20,412 nucleotides of DNA, from positions 1 through 20,412 of the IMG/VR virus record IMGVR_UViG_3300030450_002349; one strand, 5' to 3'. A model generated the notes under the pieces. It was not told the origin of the DNA. It did not search any database and saw only the letters and a program-made list of their open reading frames with translations. The translations under genes were made by a program, and so were the position numbers. Shown piece by piece: positions 2,317 through 20,412 of the stretch; the stretch's first letter is position 1; each line of letters begins with the position of its first letter. This DNA comes from a virus.

Positions 2317-3531
2317 ATGGCAACAGCAACAACGCTGAGTGCCTGGGATAACGCATTAAAACAATATTACAGGGGTGCAGAAGTAGAAAAACTTGTCTAC
2401 GATAGTCATCCTTTCATGGAACTTGTCCCAAAGGACGAAAAGTTTCGTGGTGTAAATGCGCCAATTCCAGTGTATTACACACGTCCACAAGGACGTTCTG
2501 CCACTTTTGCAACAGCTCAATCAGCAGCTAGTGCTTCAAAAATTGGCGAATTTCTATTAACCCGAAAAGCAAACTATGGAGTTGCAACTATTTCAGGAGA
2601 GGCAGTCGCAGCCTCAGAGGGAGATAGGTATAGTTTCCTAAACGCAATGACTACCGAAATTGACGGTGTGATGCGTTCCGTAGGAGATTCAATCTCAAGA
2701 AACCTTTACCGTGACGGTTCTGGTGCAATCGGAAGAATTAACAACTCTTCATTTTCAACAACTGCACTTGACCTGGTTACAGACATGGACTCACTTAACT
2801 TTGAAGTCGGAATGACCCTGCAAGTCTCAGGTACTAAATCCGGTGGATCAGTTAGGTCAGGAACCTTAACCGTAGCAGGCGTGAATCGCGGAGCTTCCAG
2901 CAACCAAATTACCATGAGTGGTAACTTGAGTGGTTGGTCCTCAGTCGCGCAGAATGACTATATTTATCAGTCTGGTGATTATGACGGTGCGCTTACCGGC
3001 CTTGCAGGTTGGTTGCCAGCAACAGCACCATCATCGGCTGCATTCTTTGGTCAGGACCGTACTGCTGATATAACCAGATTATCTGGTCAACGCTATGATG
3101 GTTCCAGCGGAACTATTCTGGAAGCAATCATCGAAGGAGCAGCATTAGCAGCTCGCGAAGGTGGCAAGCCAGATTATATGTTCTGTTCATTTGCTGATTT
3201 TGTCAGCATTGAAAAAGCCATGAACGCCCAGGTACAGAGAGATGTTAAAGCATCTGATTCAGTTTCCGGTTATCGGAGTTTGGAATTTTACGCACCTCAC
3301 GGTGTTGTTAAGATTGTTCCAGATAAGGATTGTCCTGGAGGCACAGCTTATATGCTTCAGCTGAATACAATGTCACTTATGAGCATTGGATCTTGCGTAC
3401 AACTCACAGAGTTGGATGGCAACCGTGTTCTGAGACAGTCTGCAGATGATGGCATAGAAGTTAGGGTGCATTCCTACTCTCAACTTGCGTGTACTGCGCC
3501 AGGCAAAAATTGTGTCGTAACTCTTCCATAA
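2317..3531 (+). CDS. Major capsid protein
   Basis: The 404-aa product is the likely shell protein. It directly follows the scaffold gene and has a clear ribosome site, GGAGA at 2306-2310, seven bases before the ATG. The N-terminal 130 residues look like a phage coat of the HK97 fold: an N-terminal arm, a segment matching the E-loop/P-domain style (IPVYYTRPQGRSATFATAQS), then the long spine-helix region with SGEAVAASEGDRYSFLNAM. Residues about 150-215 are Ser/Gly/Thr-rich and beta-like, probably an inserted surface domain. The length is typical for coat proteins that do not need proteolytic maturation. Function is inferred from gene order and overall character. Confidence 0.88.
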   Translation: MATATTLSAWDNALKQYYRGAEVEKLVYDSHPFMELVPKDEKFRGVNAPIPVYYTRPQGRSATFATAQSAASASKIGEFLLTRKANYGVATISGEAVAASEGDRYSFLNAMTTEIDGVMRSVGDSISRNLYRDGSGAIGRINNSSFSTTALDLVTDMDSLNFEVGMTLQVSGTKSGGSVRSGTLTVAGVNRGASSNQITMSGNLSGWSSVAQNDYIYQSGDYDGALTGLAGWLPATAPSSAAFFGQDRTADITRLSGQRYDGSSGTILEAIIEGAALAAREGGKPDYMFCSFADFVSIEKAMNAQVQRDVKASDSVSGYRSLEFYAPHGVVKIVPDKDCPGGTAYMLQLNTMSLMSIGSCVQLTELDGNRVLRQSADDGIEVRVHSYSQLACTAPGKNCVVTLP

Positions 3532-3547
3532 ATGAAAGGAGGACCAT

Positions 3548-3928
3548 ATGGCAGAAAAAATATTCTTTGATGTGCAGTCGCTTAATCCGCACGTCAAAAT
3601 TATTGCTGGTACGTTTAAACCTAACGGTTCAAGCGCAATCGACAATACAGCAAATAAAGGTGCAGGGTGGACTGTAGCACGAAGTGGAACTGGACATTAC
3701 GTTGTCACATTAGATGACGCATATCCAGGTTTGCTAAGTGCGCAAGTTACACTCCAGCACAATGGAGCAGGTGACAAAAAAGTGCATTTAGGTGCAATTG
3801 ATGTTTCGTCAGCAAAGACCATCGCAATATATAATATTGAAGGTGCTTCTGCTGCTGACTTAGCTGCTCATGCAAATAACCATGTTCACTTCACTTTGAT
3901 ATTACGCAACACTGATATGACCAAATAA
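3548..3928 (+). CDS. Small capsid-associated (decoration-like) protein
   Basis: A 126-aa protein begins six bases after a perfect AAAGGAGG (3535-3542), the strongest type of ribosome site in the window, which implies high expression. The sequence is mostly predicted beta strand with short polar turns. It lacks cysteines, membrane segments and a signal peptide. Its place directly after the major capsid gene is where phages often encode head decoration or stabilising proteins, so a head-surface role is the best guess. No catalytic motif is visible and I do not recognise a named family with certainty. An alternative is a second minor head or head-completion protein. Confidence 0.7.
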   Translation: MAEKIFFDVQSLNPHVKIIAGTFKPNGSSAIDNTANKGAGWTVARSGTGHYVVTLDDAYPGLLSAQVTLQHNGAGDKKVHLGAIDVSSAKTIAIYNIEGASAADLAAHANNHVHFTLILRNTDMTK

Positions 3929-4180: not shown

Positions 4181-5056
4181 ATGACTGATATTGTAAGTTT
4201 GTCAGAGCTGCGTCTTTTAGCGCAGCAGCGTGCAGACATGGAGAATAGCCAATTCATCACAGACGATGAGTGGCGCAGAATGATTAACAGAGGGTACGCT
4301 GAACTGTATGATCTGATTGTAACATCAGCAAACAGTGAAGATTACTTTCTAAGTTCTGGCACAATTTCCCTGGTCAGTGGCACTGATACTTACGATCTTC
4401 CTACAGATTTCTACAAATCTCGCGGAGTGGATCTGAACACTGGAGGTGCAAAGATCCCTCTGCGCAGATACAATTTCTCTGAACGTAATATTGGCGGGCT
4501 ATATTCTGTAGCTTCCGATATGCGTTACCACATACAAAGTAATTCAATAGTATTTAATCCCGAACCAAGCAGCCCTGACACAATCACAATTTACTACATT
4601 GCAAACCCCAGGAAATTTGTAGAGTACACAACAACAGCAATTTCACGCGGAGCAACAACAACCTGGACAATCGGCACTCATTCACTGCAAATTGGTGACT
4701 TGCTGGATGCAAAAAACTTCCTGGCTGCAGATTATAATGTAACACAAACAGTAACTGCAGTAGCTGCAACAACTGTCACTACGGACCTTAATTCTTCTGC
4801 ACTATCAGATCCATCAATCTATGGGAGTATTGAAAGCAGGTATGACTTCTACAGTGGATGGGATGAGTTTGTTATCATTGCCACAGCAATCCTGGCACTT
4901 ATAAAAGAGGAAGCAGATGTATCTGCATTGTTTGCACTCAAACAGCAGGTCCAGGAAAGAATTATCGCAGTCAGTGAAATGCGTGACCTGGGAGAACCAA
5001 CAACAGTTACAGATGTAAGTAATTACAATTCACTCTGGCACACAGCAACAGCATGA
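4181..5056 (+). CDS. Head-to-tail connector / adaptor protein
   Basis: The frame is open further upstream to 4115, but the ATG at 4181, preceded by AGGTAGAG and lying ten bases after the previous stop, is the credible start and gives 291 aa. The N-terminus is helical (SLSELRLLAQQRADM, with a following DDEWRRMINRGYAELYDL helix). It leads into a beta-rich middle with the pattern GTxSLVSGTDTYDLPTDFYKSRGV, which I associate with phage neck or tail-tubular-A-like adaptors. A second helical part near residues 225-270 closes the protein. In podoviruses such a protein sits between portal and tail. The next gene overlaps by four bases (ATGA), indicating translational coupling. Confidence 0.75.
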   Translation: MTDIVSLSELRLLAQQRADMENSQFITDDEWRRMINRGYAELYDLIVTSANSEDYFLSSGTISLVSGTDTYDLPTDFYKSRGVDLNTGGAKIPLRRYNFSERNIGGLYSVASDMRYHIQSNSIVFNPEPSSPDTITIYYIANPRKFVEYTTTAISRGATTTWTIGTHSLQIGDLLDAKNFLAADYNVTQTVTAVAATTVTTDLNSSALSDPSIYGSIESRYDFYSGWDEFVIIATAILALIKEEADVSALFALKQQVQERIIAVSEMRDLGEPTTVTDVSNYNSLWHTATA

Positions 5057-5376: not shown

Positions 5377-6609
5377 ATGAGTACATCAGGCACTAATATT
5401 ACCAGTATTGCAAAACCAGGTATAGGTACAACAGCAGGTCCACAATGGGCAACAGATATAAATGCTTCCTTGGATGCAGTAGATGGACACGATCACAGCA
5501 CTAACAAGGGTGTTCGCATTACACCTGCTGGAGTTAATATAAATTCTGACCTTGAGTTTAACCAAAATAGTGCCAGTGAATTAAAGAACGTGATTTTTGA
5601 TAGTTCTGTTACAGCTGCAACAACATCATATTCTATGTACCAGGCAAGCGGGAATTTATACTGGCGCAATGGTTCTGGAACTGCAGTACAGATCACGACT
5701 GGATCTAGCGTTAATGCAGGTGCAGGATCAATTTCTGGTATGTCAGGCACAGATGCAGGTGTAACATACGCAGACAGCTCAAAAACTTTCAACTTCTTTA
5801 CGGATTCAGCAAATGAAGATTATGGAAAAATGGCACACGCAGATTTGCTGCTGTTTAAATATACCAATGATAATACTGGTGATACGGATTATGTAACAAT
5901 TGCTGCAAATGCAGGTGTGTCTGGATCTTCTGGAACCATATACGTTCCTTCAGAAAACGGCACGTTTCTGACTACTGCAACCAATTATGCAGGTGCAATT
6001 AATATTGCCACAAGCAATTCAAATAATAACATTGCACTAAAGCCACACGGTACAGGATTTGTCCTTGTAGGTAATGGAGGTGCAACCGGCAAAGTTACTT
6101 CCAACGGTGCGTATGATTTGATCCTGGACACCAACAGTGGAACCAACAGCTCATATATCACCATTACAGATGCAGCCAATGGTAACATTTCCCTGGTCAA
6201 TAATGGTACTGGTGAAGTAGTTATAGGTAGCGGATCAGCTGCAGGCAAACTCACAACTTCAGGTGCGCATGATCTGGTACTGGACACAAATGCAGGAACC
6301 GATAGTTCAAGTATCAAAATTGTTGATGCTGCTAATGGGGATATTGAACTTACACCAAATGGAACTGGTAATGTAAAAATCGACAATATATCAATTTCAG
6401 ATAATGCAATTATTTCTTCCAACTCAAATGGCAACATTGCACTTACTCCAAATGGTACTGGTGATGTTGATTTAGGAAATGGCACTGGTAATATTAATTG
6501 TAGTTCTTCATTTGCAACAGATATAAAAACAACTAACACTAAAAAAGTTTATTCAAAAGGAAACTGTGCGCAGACTAATCTGGTTGCCAGTTTAATTCAT
6601 GGTTTTTAA
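5377..6609 (+). CDS. Tail fibre protein with repeated beta modules
   Basis: The 410-aa product is a likely receptor-binding tail fibre. Residues 1-65 contain a phage fibre N-terminal pattern (GPQWATDINASLDAVDGHDHS, then VRITPAGVNINSDLEF), expected to attach to the tail. Residues 66-200 are Ser/Thr/Asn/Gly-rich. Residues 217-370 carry repeats of the form NGxIxLxPNGTGxV at about 217, 268, 320 and 351. A longer duplication of about 50 residues (235-285 and 287-336) has a GxxAYDLxLDTNxGT core. The C-terminus after residue 361 is nearly identical to the end of the next ORF. No cysteine-rich or S74 chaperone end is present. The ribosome site is weak (AGGT). Confidence 0.8.
   Translation: MSTSGTNITSIAKPGIGTTAGPQWATDINASLDAVDGHDHSTNKGVRITPAGVNINSDLEFNQNSASELKNVIFDSSVTAATTSYSMYQASGNLYWRNGSGTAVQITTGSSVNAGAGSISGMSGTDAGVTYADSSKTFNFFTDSANEDYGKMAHADLLLFKYTNDNTGDTDYVTIAANAGVSGSSGTIYVPSENGTFLTTATNYAGAINIATSNSNNNIALKPHGTGFVLVGNGGATGKVTSNGAYDLILDTNSGTNSSYITITDAANGNISLVNNGTGEVVIGSGSAAGKLTTSGAHDLVLDTNAGTDSSSIKIVDAANGDIELTPNGTGNVKIDNISISDNAIISSNSNGNIALTPNGTGDVDLGNGTGNINCSSSFATDIKTTNTKKVYSKGNCAQTNLVASLIHGF
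6453..6568 (+). repeat. Fibre-tip direct repeat, copy 1
   Basis: A 116-base stretch inside the fibre C-terminus recurs 249 bases downstream at 6702-6817 with a single difference (A at 6523, G at 6772). Beyond base 6568 the two copies remain collinear to their stop codons but differ at many bases. The unit therefore covers the conserved stem of the tip, and the divergence sits at the extreme C-terminus. Confidence 0.95.
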
Positions 6610-6858
6610 ATGACTCAGACAGTAGTTAGAGGATATACCGAAAATTCAGGTTCAATTACAATACAAGATGATTTGAATGGTGATATTACAATTGTTCCAA
6701 GTGGTACTGGTGATGTTGATTTAGGAAATGGCACTGGTAATATTAATTGTAGTTCTTCATTTGCAACAGATGTAAAAACAACTAACACTAAAAAAGTTTA
6801 TTCAAAAGGAAACTGTGTGCAAACTGGTTTTCATTCGTCATTAATCTTTAGTTTTTAG
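6610..6858 (+). CDS. Stop-separated extra C-terminal fibre module (82 aa)
   Basis: This ORF begins with ATG directly after the TAA of the fibre gene, in the same frame, and has no purine-rich ribosome site of its own. Its length including stop (249 bases) equals the spacing to a near copy of the fibre C-terminus. Residues 23-69 match the fibre end almost exactly (PSGTGDVDLGNGTGNINCSS and following), whereas the first 22 and last 14 residues differ. It may be made by termination-reinitiation, or as a read-through extension giving a 493-residue fibre. It could also be a relic or silent alternative tip. Its own reading frame is intact, which argues against long decay. Confidence 0.55.
   Translation: MTQTVVRGYTENSGSITIQDDLNGDITIVPSGTGDVDLGNGTGNINCSSSFATDVKTTNTKKVYSKGNCVQTGFHSSLIFSF
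6702..6817 (+). repeat. Fibre-tip direct repeat, copy 2
   Basis: This is the second copy of the 116-base fibre repeat, lying inside the 82-aa ORF. The offset of 249 bases is a whole number of codons, so both copies are translated in the same frame. Such a repeat could support homologous recombination that deletes one module and swaps the C-terminal 14 residues of the fibre. Confidence 0.95.
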
Positions 6859-6869: not shown

Positions 6870-7223
6870 GTGGCTATCCCTTCCGGTTCCGGTTCAGAAG
6901 TTTTGAAGCGTGGAACATACACCGTTACTAACACAAGTGATACAAAAATATTGGATGGTGTGGCAAATCACATCTACACCGTCCTTTCAATCATAATAAC
7001 TGAAACAGCTGGTGCTGCTGAAACCTTTGGATTGTTTTTAGATCCAAGTGCAAGTGGAACTGATTATGAAATAATTTCATTAGCAACCGCATTGGGGGCA
7101 GATGAAACCTTTATATTCAATGACCGTCTGGTGCTAACTGGTACAGATGAGCTTAACTTTAAGGCAGGCGGGACTTGTGATATTGACATTGTAATAAATT
7201 ATGTGGACCAAGATTGGACTTAA
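6870..7223 (+). CDS. Small beta-rich tail-region protein
   Basis: This 117-aa protein starts at GTG after a good TAGGAGG. The N-terminus (SGSGSEVLKRGTYTVTN) and the alternation of hydrophobic and polar residues throughout suggest a single beta-sandwich domain with no membrane segment or cysteine pair. The pattern resembles small accessory proteins I have seen next to fibre genes in marine phages, possibly fibre or baseplate decoration, but I cannot give a named function. The gene sits between two fibre-type genes with only short gaps on either side, so co-transcription is nearly certain. Confidence 0.65.
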   Translation: MAIPSGSGSEVLKRGTYTVTNTSDTKILDGVANHIYTVLSIIITETAGAAETFGLFLDPSASGTDYEIISLATALGADETFIFNDRLVLTGTDELNFKAGGTCDIDIVINYVDQDWT

Positions 7224-7240: not shown

Positions 7241-7696
7241 ATGAGTGGAATTGTTGGTAGTATTCCAGTTTCTAGTACAAGACAACATACAGTTTTTGCT
7301 TCTGGCACAAAAATGCTTTTTAACCAGACAGCAGCACCTACTGGATGGACTAAGGTTACTGGATCAGGTAATGATACTGCTTTAAGAGTAACTACTGGCA
7401 CAGTTGGAACAGGTGGATCAGTAGCATTTGAAACTGCATTTGCATCGCAGGATATTGCGGATCATACGCTAACTCTAGCTGAAACTCCGGCACATGGACA
7501 TTCATTCTACTTATATACTGTGGCTGGTTCAGGTGGTTCTACTGGAAATAGAGTTACAAATGCTGGTTCTGGTTACTATTCTAACAATTCGTCATTTGGT
7601 TCGATTAATAATGCGGGGGGTGGTTCAGCTCATAATCACGGGGCGATCAATTTAGATGTTTCTTATGTAGATGTAATTATAGCAACAAAGGATTAA
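7241..7696 (+). CDS. Tail collar / fibre-tip-like protein
   Basis: The 151-aa product has the layout of a phage tail collar or fibre-tip domain. There is an N-terminal FNQTAAPTGWTKVTGSGNDT segment followed by ALRVTTGTVGTGGS and ETPAHGHSF. A variable Gly/Ser/Asn-rich loop covers about residues 98-128, and a histidine repeat (SAHNHG) precedes a beta-strand finish. The two HxH motifs (HGH and HNH) are typical of metal-coordinating trimeric fibre tips. The variable Gly/Ser region between them is where receptor contacts usually lie. The ribosome site is GAAGAGG upstream of ATG 7241. It is probably an adhesin at the fibre tip or a separate short spike. Confidence 0.75.
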   Translation: MSGIVGSIPVSSTRQHTVFASGTKMLFNQTAAPTGWTKVTGSGNDTALRVTTGTVGTGGSVAFETAFASQDIADHTLTLAETPAHGHSFYLYTVAGSGGSTGNRVTNAGSGYYSNNSSFGSINNAGGGSAHNHGAINLDVSYVDVIIATKD

Positions 7697-8207: not shown

Positions 8208-8381
8208 ATGGAAAAAAAATCACTGGATGAAAAAATCCAGGCAGCGGACCAAGAGTTAGAAAAAATATCAGCAAACATAAATGAATTAGCAACCCGCCAG
8301 CAAAGACTAATCGGTTATCGTCAGTGCCTGGTTGATATGAAAGAAAATAATGCCACTACAAAAAGCACTGGTTCCGGTTGA
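8208..8381 (+). CDS. Short helical protein (57 aa)
   Basis: An ATG one base after the previous stop opens a 57-codon frame. The product is almost wholly helical with heptad-like spacing (DEKIQAADQELEKISANINEL), consistent with a small coiled coil. It overlaps the start of the large tail gene by 32 bases in another frame, so the two would be translationally coupled. There is one cysteine (residue 40) and no membrane segment. Tight packing and coding-like composition support a real gene, but no function can be given. Confidence 0.5.
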   Translation: MEKKSLDEKIQAADQELEKISANINELATRQQRLIGYRQCLVDMKENNATTKSTGSG

Positions 8382-11300
8382 TATTGTTTCAGGATTAGAT
8401 ACTAAAAATGATCCCAAACTTACACCTGCACTTACAGATTTACAAAATGGCAGATATACGGTAGGTTCTCAAATATCAAAACGTCTAGGTTATTCAGCAC
8501 TCCCACAAACAATTTCTGGCACAACTGACCTGCTTTCTACAGGTGATGGCCTAACCTCATTCCAGGATGAGTTGCTTGAGTTTAGCGGATCTAAATTATA
8601 CAGCTATTCATCATCAGTAAGACGTTGGACTGACAAAGGCGCATTTCAGTCAGTAAAAATTGATTCAGATGACGTAATTAGAAACACTTCTGAAGCAAAA
8701 AATCAGGATAGCTGTATTGCAAGTGGGCTTCAACTCTTTGCCTGGGAACAATACGATACTTCAGGTACTCTTGAAGGTATTTATGCTTCAGTTTTTGATT
8801 CAGTAAGTGGAGCAATCTTTCAAGCATCTACTTTAATTGATGCAACTGCAATAAATCCCAGGTGCATTGCTCTTGGTCCAAACCCTACTTTATGCTACCT
8901 AGACACAAGTTCAACACCATACCTATTAAAGACTGTTCAAGTTGATACAAATAATCCGGTGGCGTTTAAATCAGCAGAAACCGTTTCCTCAGTAGTTAAT
9001 AATACAAATCCAGTTTATGACGTTGCAGTATATTCAGATGACTTGGATTTTGGTAATGGTATCTTTGCCTATAACAATTCAGGCGCAACCAGGATTGATG
9101 TAGGTTACTTAACAACTGAAGGTGCTGTTGGCACTCCAGGTACAGGTTATCCAAGTGTTACCACTATCACATCCACAAATGCCTCTGATGGTATTTCAAT
9201 TTGCGCAGATAAAGTTAATACTGCACCTACTGAAGAAGAACGTATCTATGTGGGATATTCAACTACAGCATCTTCTGCAGGTCTAAAGATTAAAAGGTTG
9301 CAAAGTCTTTTGACCGTAGAAGCAACCCATACTGTTGAAAGCACTGCAACTAAAATTGATAACAGCAGTATGATTGTCACCCAGGCAGGTGATCTTCAAA
9401 TTATCTACACCCTAAATGCTACTAATTCTTATGACCACCTAATTAAAGGTGCAGTTTATAATGTTACTGATAATTCTATGGGGACTCCTGCAGTTATTAA
9501 ACGCAGCGTTGGGCTTGCTTCTAAAATATGGGAATATAATACAGTTAAATATTTTGTAGTGGTACATGATACTAATTTGCAGCCTACTTATTTTGTCTGC
9601 AATACAGACGGTCTAATTTCAGCAAAAATACTACCTGGAACTGCAGGCGCACTTCCTACGAAAACTTTTCTAAGTTCAGCAAATGCTAGTGCAACTGGTG
9701 TCTACAAATTTGGTGGATTGGTACGCACCAGGTTAATATCTAAAAACAATGACCTTTACAGTTTAACTGGTGTTTCAAATATTACAATTGACTTTACTTC
9801 CGTTGAAAGATTTGAAGCAGCAGAATTAGGTGGAAATCTGCATATTGGAGGTGGTTTTGTCAGTATGTATGATTCACAGCAAATCGTGGAACTTGGGTAT
9901 CATTTATATCCAGAAAATGTAAGTGCAGCAATAAATAACAGCTCTGGTTCCCTGGCAGCAGGTACATATTTATACCAGGTAATCTGGAAATGGACAGATG
10001 CAAAAGGTCAGGATCATAGAAGTTCGCCAAGTGTAGCAGTTTCCGCTGCACCTACAGGTGGATCTTCAACTGTAACACTAACGATACCGTCACTACGTTT
10101 AACACAGAAAAGTGATGTAATCTGCGAAGTTTACCGAACCACAGACACTGGCAGGCTGCTTTTCAAAATTGGTACAGTAGACAATAATACAGCAGCAGAT
10201 TCAATTAGTTTTGCAGATGCAGGTGCATTAAATGATACAAACCTGGTTGCAAAGGAATCACTCTACACAAATGGCGGGCAGATCGAAAACATACCACCAC
10301 CCGCAAGCCTTGTTTTGACCACATATAAAAACAGACTTGTTTGTGTAAGTTCAGAAAATCCAAAAAAACTAATTTATTCTAAAAAAAGATCACCACTTGG
10401 TCCTGTCGAATTTTCAGATGTTTTTTCTATTGTTCTAAATAAAGCAACCAAGATTACTGCACTCTCAGAATTTGACCAGAAACTGATTATATTTGAACCA
10501 AACAAAATTTTTTACATAACTGGCAACGGCCCAACTTCTACTGGTGCGCAAAACGATCTCTCACCCCCTCAAGCTGTAACAGGGGATGTGGGGTGCAGCA
10601 ACACAAATTCCCTGGTATTAATGCCATTAGGTTTAATGTTTCAGTCTAATAAAGGAATCTACCTTTTAGACAGAAGTTTGCAGACTGTTTACATTGGGGC
10701 CGAAGTAGAAGCATACAATGATTTAACAATTACTTCTGCAGAATTGATCCAGAATGAAAACCAGATCCGCTACCTTACCAGTGATGGTAGGTGCTTGATT
10801 TATGATTATTTTTATAAGAAATGGGCCACCTGGACAAACCACGAAGGAAACGGAGCAACTATTTGGAATGCTACTGGAGATTATGTTTACCTACGGACCG
10901 ATGGCAGGATATTCCAGCAATCTTCCACTTCATACAAAGATGACAATGATCCAATTGAAATGAGCATTACAACTTCATGGGTGAAGACAAATGGCATCCA
11001 GGGGTTCCAGCGGATCAGGAGAGCATTGGTCCTGGGAGATTTTAAAAGTACCCACACGTTACAGCTGGAAATTGGACATGATTACCAGGATTACTTTAAT
11101 GAGCTGCACAAGTTTAATTACATCAATGACCTGGAAGTAATTAATTATGGAGACAGCACGCCTTTTGGTGATGCAAATTACTATGGGACAAATTCAGGTG
11201 TAGCAGATGGAGTGTATCAATTTCGCGCCCACTGCAAAAAACAGAAATGCCAAAGTGTAAGATTTAAAATTTCAGATATTGATGAAGCGGAGCCAGGACA

Positions 11301-11382
11301 AGCATATTCAATTTCTAGTCTCGTCTTAGAAGTAGGAGTGAGACAAAATTCCATGAAACTACCAGCACAAAAACTAACATGA
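8350..11382 (+). CDS. Large tail/stabilisation protein (tail-tubular-B or P22 gp10-like)
   Basis: This 1010-aa protein is beta-rich throughout. The N-terminus has VDIVSGLDTKNDPKLTPA, then repeated strand-turn units. Around residues 650-815 lie segments such as TYKNRLVCVSSENPKKLIYS, ITALSEFDQKLIIFEPNKI and LGLMFQSNKGIYLLDRSLQ. I associate the pattern 'data are plotted, device shows X, look for source Y' (propeller-like, with FEPNKIFYITG) with podovirus tail stabilisation or nozzle proteins of the P22 gp10 or T7 gp12 kind. Size and place, between the fibre block and the ejection-protein genes, fit a nozzle or hub. The start overlaps the 57-aa ORF, and the end overlaps the next gene by four bases (ATGA). 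Confidence 0.75.
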   Translation: MPLQKALVPVDIVSGLDTKNDPKLTPALTDLQNGRYTVGSQISKRLGYSALPQTISGTTDLLSTGDGLTSFQDELLEFSGSKLYSYSSSVRRWTDKGAFQSVKIDSDDVIRNTSEAKNQDSCIASGLQLFAWEQYDTSGTLEGIYASVFDSVSGAIFQASTLIDATAINPRCIALGPNPTLCYLDTSSTPYLLKTVQVDTNNPVAFKSAETVSSVVNNTNPVYDVAVYSDDLDFGNGIFAYNNSGATRIDVGYLTTEGAVGTPGTGYPSVTTITSTNASDGISICADKVNTAPTEEERIYVGYSTTASSAGLKIKRLQSLLTVEATHTVESTATKIDNSSMIVTQAGDLQIIYTLNATNSYDHLIKGAVYNVTDNSMGTPAVIKRSVGLASKIWEYNTVKYFVVVHDTNLQPTYFVCNTDGLISAKILPGTAGALPTKTFLSSANASATGVYKFGGLVRTRLISKNNDLYSLTGVSNITIDFTSVERFEAAELGGNLHIGGGFVSMYDSQQIVELGYHLYPENVSAAINNSSGSLAAGTYLYQVIWKWTDAKGQDHRSSPSVAVSAAPTGGSSTVTLTIPSLRLTQKSDVICEVYRTTDTGRLLFKIGTVDNNTAADSISFADAGALNDTNLVAKESLYTNGGQIENIPPPASLVLTTYKNRLVCVSSENPKKLIYSKKRSPLGPVEFSDVFSIVLNKATKITALSEFDQKLIIFEPNKIFYITGNGPTSTGAQNDLSPPQAVTGDVGCSNTNSLVLMPLGLMFQSNKGIYLLDRSLQTVYIGAEVEAYNDLTITSAELIQNENQIRYLTSDGRCLIYDYFYKKWATWTNHEGNGATIWNATGDYVYLRTDGRIFQQSSTSYKDDNDPIEMSITTSWVKTNGIQGFQRIRRALVLGDFKSTHTLQLEIGHDYQDYFNELHKFNYINDLEVINYGDSTPFGDANYYGTNSGVADGVYQFRAHCKKQKCQSVRFKISDIDEAEPGQAYSISSLVLEVGVRQNSMKLPAQKLT

Positions 11383-19655: not shown

Positions 19656-20412
19656 CTAACTTTTATACATCCTTTTAGTTAATATATCTGCACCTTCCTC
19701 AGAGTTGCTTTCATCAAAATGCGCATAGCGTTTAGTGCTTTGAATACTCTTTTGTCCCAGGTATTCGCCAGTTTTTTCTAGGGACCATCCACCCTGCACT
19801 AAATAACTTCCACAACAATGCCTGAGTCCGTGGAAACAAAATCCTTTAGGAATTATAACCCCATCAAATCTTCCTTCCTTATCTGGCGTTTCAAGCACTT
19901 TTAACAAACTCTTCCAGGATCTTGTGCTATCTTCTGGAAATATAAGTTCTGACTTACTCGCCAATTGTCTTTCTGCCAGTAGCTTTTTTAGTGGTGCTTC
20001 CATTTTGAGAATCTTCAAATCAGATCCGTTTTTTAAACCGTCTGTGATTATATTTGTAACGTACTCAGCTACAAGTTTTCCATCCACAATTTCTGCCCTG
20101 GTATTTTTTGCTCTCCGCTTTGCTTTAGTGAAATTTATGGTGGACCTTTTGCGGTCTATATCTTCCCAATATAACCCCTGTGCTTCTGAAATTCTGCATC
20201 CTGTATTTAAACCAAAATGTACCAAATCAGATAAACTGTTTGATGCTTTTTTATAATACGGATTTACACACTTAACTTCTTTACCACGGTAATCTTGTGT
20301 AAACTCTTTTACATGGGAAGTTCTAATTGCAAGTTCAAAAAATAACCGTTCACGTTGAACATCATTTAATATTATATCGCGCCCATTTTCTACTTTTTCT
20401 GGTTGCACATCT
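19656..20412 (-). CDS. int: Tyrosine integrase, catalytic domain; N-terminus outside window
   Basis: The frame is open to the window edge, and the apparent GTG start at 20406-20408 is probably an internal valine. The arm-binding and core-binding N-terminal parts therefore lie beyond the window. The 250 residues counted from that codon carry the catalytic set: Arg72 (NTGCRISEA), His193 and Arg196 (FHGLRH), and nucleophile Tyr228 (TKRYAHF). The position before the tyrosine usually holding His or Trp is Gln219 (YLGQKS), a tolerated but less common variant. The enzyme joins attP to the host tRNA gene. Its stop codon sits beside the attP arm repeats, and the gene converges with the late operon. 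Confidence 0.93.
   Translation of the reverse strand, partial: DVQPEKVENGRDIILNDVQRERLFFELAIRTSHVKEFTQDYRGKEVKCVNPYYKKASNSLSDLVHFGLNTGCRISEAQGLYWEDIDRKRSTINFTKAKRRAKNTRAEIVDGKLVAEYVTNIITDGLKNGSDLKILKMEAPLKKLLAERQLASKSELIFPEDSTRSWKSLLKVLETPDKEGRFDGVIIPKGFCFHGLRHCCGSYLVQGGWSLEKTGEYLGQKSIQSTKRYAHFDESNSEEGADILTKRMYKS

Follow-up and report, generated by a model that had tools for sequence, protein, structure and literature searches.

In T4-like phages, the C-terminus of the gp37 fibre is capped by the gp38 adhesin, whose gene is found directly downstream. In the T5-like phages DT57C and DT571/2, two neighbouring genes encode the fibres LtfA and LtfB, whose C-termini are related and which share long direct repeats at the nucleotide level; LtfB, a large receptor-binding fibre (residues 288-767 in one fusion) whose chaperone domain is autocleaved, depends on LtfA for its attachment to the virion (PMC4728585). 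Additionally, recombination at the C-terminal repeats of ltfA and ltfB was found to have fused the two genes, with one fibre crippled and another working (PMC4728585). In SU10, the long tail fibre sits after the adaptor gene, and the proximal gp12 is accompanied by a single distal fibre protein, gp13 (PMC9509320). Finally, small genes directly behind the fibre genes of Alteromonas phages encode cognate chaperones or transient caps, which resemble intramolecular chaperones in having an alpha-helical core and beta-hairpin 'tentacles' (PMC10579305).

The locus analysed here lies in IMG/VR record IMGVR_UViG_3300030450_002349, which constitutes the window of 20,412 bases to which all coordinates refer, and which represents an uncultured, short-tailed virus of bacteria, probably marine to judge by features of its relatives. 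Its portal and adaptor match the SU10-type families PF23899 (E 2.6e-9) and PF24175 (E 2.4e-10), both above the curated Pfam cut-offs, as in SU10-like short-tailed phages. The capsid matches a PHROG major head protein (E 4e-20), while its match to SU10_MCP (PF17236) is weak and under the Pfam cut-off. A 1010-aa protein with only weak library matches (8350-11382) occupies the position of the SU10 nozzle gene. A tyrosine integrase at the right end (19656-20411, minus strand) suggests a temperate phage, and no tRNA marking an attachment site was found in the window. Neither a megablast with the window nor tblastn with the capsid and fibre detected relatives among isolated phages, none were found in bacterial and archaeal genomes, and the fibre matched no solved structure. 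For comparison, 33 viral loci were fetched (designated by L-numbers), in 32 of which the N-terminal 200 aa of the fibre were 51-90% identical to a local fibre, the last one giving a fibre match of 64% over 70 aa.

As in SU10, the fibre gene comes after an SU10-type adaptor gene and the order is adaptor, proximal fibre and distal pieces, whereas the distal part appears here to be spread over a small ORF, a member of a 117-aa gene family found behind fibre tips and labelled d117, and a protein termed MSGI (Table 1). The locus resembles gp37/gp38 in having a putative separately encoded cap right behind the fibre gene; however, gp38 does not duplicate the end of its fibre, while the window's small protein does, and two more probable tip proteins come after it. 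The likeness to LtfA/LtfB is one of layout; the second protein has only 69-82 aa, and no domain of the LtfB type was found in it. In Pfam searches, the autocleavable chaperone domain (pfam13884) was absent from both the fibre and the small ORF, neither of which had any Pfam match. Likewise, the small gene directly behind the fibre recalls the Alteromonas phages, but its product copies the stem and tip of the fibre. Among the literature titles and abstracts listed, nothing directly comparable was found for tail-fibre read-through or for tandem marine fibre tips, and work on fibre duplication and coupling yielded the LtfA/LtfB paper. The arrangement is a real and conserved variant of multi-part tail-fibre ends that, as far as these searches show, was previously undescribed.

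Table 1. Coordinates of the fibre gene, the repeat and the downstream genes in the window.
Feature	Coordinates	Strand	Remarks
Tail fibre (proximal/stem) gene, 410 aa	5377..6609	+	ends in tip A, ..KKVYSKGNCAQTNLVASLIHGF; from the ORF list
Repeat copy 1, inside fibre	6427..6576	+	150 nt, 93% identical to copy 2
Tip A, final 22 fibre codons, KKVYSKGN..NLVASLIHGF	6541..6606	+	confined to the window and 7 contigs from 3 lineages, small ORF always next
Fibre stop TAA adjoining small-ORF ATG	6607..6612	+	TAA-ATG also in L039 and L052; TAA-TA-ATG, in another frame, in L055
Small ORF, 82 aa	6610..6858	+	own leader MTQTVVRGYT..SGSI, shared linker, tip B ..KKVYSKGNCVQTGFHSSLIFSF
Repeat copy 2, inside small ORF	6676..6825	+	150 nt, spacing 249
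d117, 117-aa beta-sandwich virion protein	6870..7223	+	strong ribosome site; usual gene right behind fibre tips
MSGI..SSR protein, 151 aa, tail-collar-like C-terminal domain, probable adhesin	7241..7696	+	PHROG tail protein match

A preliminary description, made from the window alone, had taken 6610-6858 for a second copy of the fibre end at 6361-6609, and had noted 116 nearly identical bases. This stretch was recovered at 6453-6568 and 6702-6817, with one mismatch at 6523, and when the offset is set to exactly 249, no longer stretch has one mismatch or fewer. The extended repeat of Table 1 is not due to chance, given a BLASTN E-value of 1.7e-59. Identity across the full 249 bases is 181/249; 249 is the spacing of the copies rather than a clean repeat length. 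Since the first 66 nt of 6361-6609 are ordinary fibre stem, with no relation to the leader of the small ORF, this segment does not form a discrete cassette. The final 14 residues of the two units do differ, as had been stated, yet they are homologous, with the pattern ..QT....SLI..F common to both. The adjacent, in-frame TAA and ATG were confirmed in the window.

Several other sources of such a repeat were considered. An assembly artefact joining two strain variants was ruled out, as the layout recurs in 7 other contigs from three lineages. A diversity-generating retroelement was rejected because, of 11 mismatches in 150 nt, only 3-4 (depending on the copy) fall at A, which does not follow the template-adenine pattern; the major ORFs that were compared with Pfam and PHROGs included no reverse transcriptase. 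An invertible tail-fibre cassette of the Mu/P1 type was also discarded, the repeats being direct and not inverted; the sole recombinase found is the integrase, about 13 kb from the repeats.

The pair of fibre gene and small ORF was identified in three further IMG/VR lineages, comprising 7 contigs and represented by L039, L052 (also fetched as L053 and L071) and L055 (to which the L056-L058 contigs are identical over the region). The N-terminal DNA of the fibre is about 69-73% identical among the four lineages, except for 86% between L052 and L055. When 2.9 million viral contigs were scanned with a degenerate tip-A pattern, those 7 contigs only were retrieved, each with a small ORF, and a query built from the small-ORF leader and linker revealed no additional two-gene locus. 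The products in the three other lineages have 69-74 aa and are 74-81% identical to that of the window. Relatives with a degraded second unit, which had been named as evidence that would speak against the earlier interpretation, were not found, all frames being intact in the four lineages.

In these lineages, the leader, which is absent from the fibre copy, shows a pairwise pS of 0.23-0.44. The pooled pN/pS was 0.42 for the leader, in a test that covers only 28 codons, and 0.04 for tip B, synonymous exceeding nonsynonymous change in both, which indicates that the small ORF is under purifying selection. The junction in L055 is TAA-TA-ATG, so that the fibre frame reads TAA TAA TGA and the small ORF lies two bases off. 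Taken together, conservation in four lineages, purifying selection and the other frame in L055 argue that the small ORF encodes a separate, conserved protein of 69-82 aa, in agreement with the earlier proposal of a separate product made by coupling. The absence of a ribosome-binding site also held, the best anti-Shine-Dalgarno pairing being -2.2 kcal/mol for the small ORF versus -11.5 for the next gene. In the relatives, pairing of the small ORF with the 16S tail was -3.1 kcal/mol, and the overlapping genes of the contig at 5053, 11379, 15690 and 18116, which are evidently coupled, gave +1.2 to -3.7. Since the pairing of the small ORF is as weak as that of these overlapping genes, termination-reinitiation is the natural inference, and the small protein is probably made by translational coupling. 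A single-chain AlphaFold model of it was uninformative (pLDDT 55).

The two end types differ in what lies next to them. In the four fibres that finish in tip A (..NLVASLIHG[FY]), the small ORF is always next and d117 never directly follows, while tip B (..FHSSL[IV]F[GS][FY]) is directly followed by a d117 family member, whether it stands on the small ORF or on the main fibre, as it does in the single-gene relatives L045, L046-48, L059, L074, L089 and L126. A d117 member is also found directly behind the commoner end ..SSTHQALxLG. Among the KG-type ends, all four tip-A fibres (three distinct ends) carry V at a position at which the other 28 distinct ends carry H (26), N (1) or T (1). Every KG-type end other than tip A has a d117 family member behind it; two of the 28 had no follower in the tabulation, and d117 relatives were seen at those loci. 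Comparison across the lineages indicates that both tips are strongly conserved and not variable. In addition, 118-aa proteins starting with MSKKITELG.. (L118:3595-3951 and L122:2301-2657) have a QSSTHQ-type end directly before d117 and are possibly another short carrier of a docking end.

For the d117 family, IMG/VR gave at least 353 matches, and Pfam and PHROGs gave none. Its AlphaFold model is a beta-sandwich (pLDDT 90.5), for which the closer fold matches were in BFVD (predicted viral proteins, mostly unnamed, some named as virion structural proteins), those in the PDB being generic beta-sandwiches with a TM-score of about 0.6 or less on the query. In most of the loci examined, d117 stands behind a tip-like C-terminus, and it appears to be a general partner of fibre tips among uncultured phages. 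The small-ORF leader does not mimic the d117 N-terminus, no significant likeness being detected (shuffle p 0.32). The third gene is the MSGI..SSR protein with a collar-like domain in 4/4 two-gene lineages, and this collar type was seen at no other examined locus with a tip-B or HQAL-type fibre end, the MSGI genes at other loci having different C-terminal domains. In L122, a short unrelated protein is followed by a collar-type gene that is similar in part and whose N-terminus differs. Three tandem collar-type, adhesin-like MSGI genes are present behind d117 in L055:2455-3782 (2455-2895, 2899-3336 and 3333-3782), where the window has one.

Exchange between the two copies and between lineages has left traces. 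The window's two linkers show 1 difference in 116 positions, while the 42-nt linker core has at least 6 differences between the window and every relative, and the window's tip A carries KGNC as in tip B, where other tip As have KGNF. With leaders and tips that are old, such near-identity of the linkers is best accounted for by a recent gene conversion from one copy to the other and not by recent duplication. The same trend is weakly seen in L039 (3/75 differences within the genome, at least 4 to others) and is absent in L055 (9/75 within the genome). Furthermore, tip B of the window's small ORF agrees at 64/66 nt with the tip on the main fibre of L045, compared with 83-89% identity to other small-ORF tips, and therefore tips have moved between the two positions, the small gene and the main fibre, across lineages; recombination is thus real on an evolutionary time scale. 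The fibre stems of the window and L045 are only 71.5% identical, so that the swap is one between lineages.

The reading that we favour, with a probability of roughly 60%, is a distal fibre built of several parts, where the small protein would serve as a connector or cap that re-creates the docking end. A separately translated and conserved second component appears to stand beside the fibre, as expected of such a structure. The fibre ends look like docking plugs because they are conserved and predict the next gene, and because diverse C-terminal domains are found instead in the MSGI gene. The 3' end of the fibre gene was long ago duplicated into a small gene with its own leader, ending in tip B. 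According to this model, the small protein, produced by termination-reinitiation on the fibre message, would form an oligomer that connects or caps the distal end of the fibre. Its leader or stem would meet tip A, and tip B would dock the d117 beta-sandwich protein, which in turn would bear the MSGI-type adhesin; the shared homology would have allowed tip B to pass from one of the two genes to the other across lineages. The docking steps are inferred from gene order and co-occurrence in a small sample of four lineages, in which modules may also travel together by linkage alone. A more specific version, in which the fibre is segmental and is lengthened or re-capped by a self-derived mini-protein (its own end copied behind a new start) that plugs onto the altered end, tip A, and re-creates the original docking end, tip B, is tentative and stands somewhat below even odds.

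Instead of forming a connector or cap, the small protein could join the fibre chain through the shared linker, forming mixed A/B trimers, or could act as an assembly helper. This would accord with a linker that is kept alike at least in the window and, less clearly, in L039, and production in cis by coupling would suit a fixed ratio; tail fibres followed by a small cognate chaperone or cap are also known (PMC10579305). However, the two linkers of L052 differ in both length and sequence, so that a matched linker is not required, and the small ORF has no chaperone family match in Pfam or PHROGs, which makes such a role unlikely.

Somewhat less probable still is a recombinational switch in which a 249-base deletion joins the stem to tip B and alters host specificity, the small ORF being a stored tip. 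The repeats are indeed direct, in frame and nearly identical over 116 nt, tip B is found on the main fibre of single-gene relatives, almost unchanged in L045, and an ltfA-ltfB fusion by recombination at C-terminal repeats is known from DT57C/DT530 (PMC4728585). That fusion offers a precedent for losing the 249 bases by accident, with selection acting on the outcome, rather than through a programmed switch. The stored copy has a selected start and leader, needless in a silent store, the tips are conserved between lineages, a deletion within a population was not seen, the swap being between lineages, and the diverse C-terminal domains lie in the MSGI gene. Thus, of the earlier idea that recombination would swap the tip in a simple host-range switch, the recombination part is borne out by traces (the homogenised linker and tip B on main fibres), whereas the switch is not, as no programmed mechanism was seen, the tips are conserved and the diversity of adhesin-like domains lies two genes downstream.

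The small ORF could also be a decaying, functionless relic of a fibre duplication, considering its small size, its missing ribosome site and its similarity to the neighbouring gene end, but it is open in four lineages with a diverged leader and the pN/pS values given above, and no degraded copy was seen, so that this is very improbable. Programmed read-through of the stop codon, which would add 82 residues to the fibre and had been raised on the basis of the in-frame TAA and ATG (shared by L039 and L052), is hardly credible, as the stop in L055 is followed by in-frame TAA and TGA with the small ORF two bases off, which rejects it there and leaves it unsupported elsewhere.

These findings separate two ideas of the extreme C-terminus of a tail fibre, namely that of a receptor-binding tip and that of a docking plug for separately encoded tip proteins. 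They also call for caution, as direct repeats at fibre ends need not mean host-range switches. In this sample, the ends predict the next gene without exception, which provides a testable docking rule for uncultured viruses that have no isolate match. If the segmental arrangement is true, a dedicated docking code, in which tip A pairs with the leader of the small protein and tip B with d117, would let distal modules, such as the collar adhesin, be swapped as sets.
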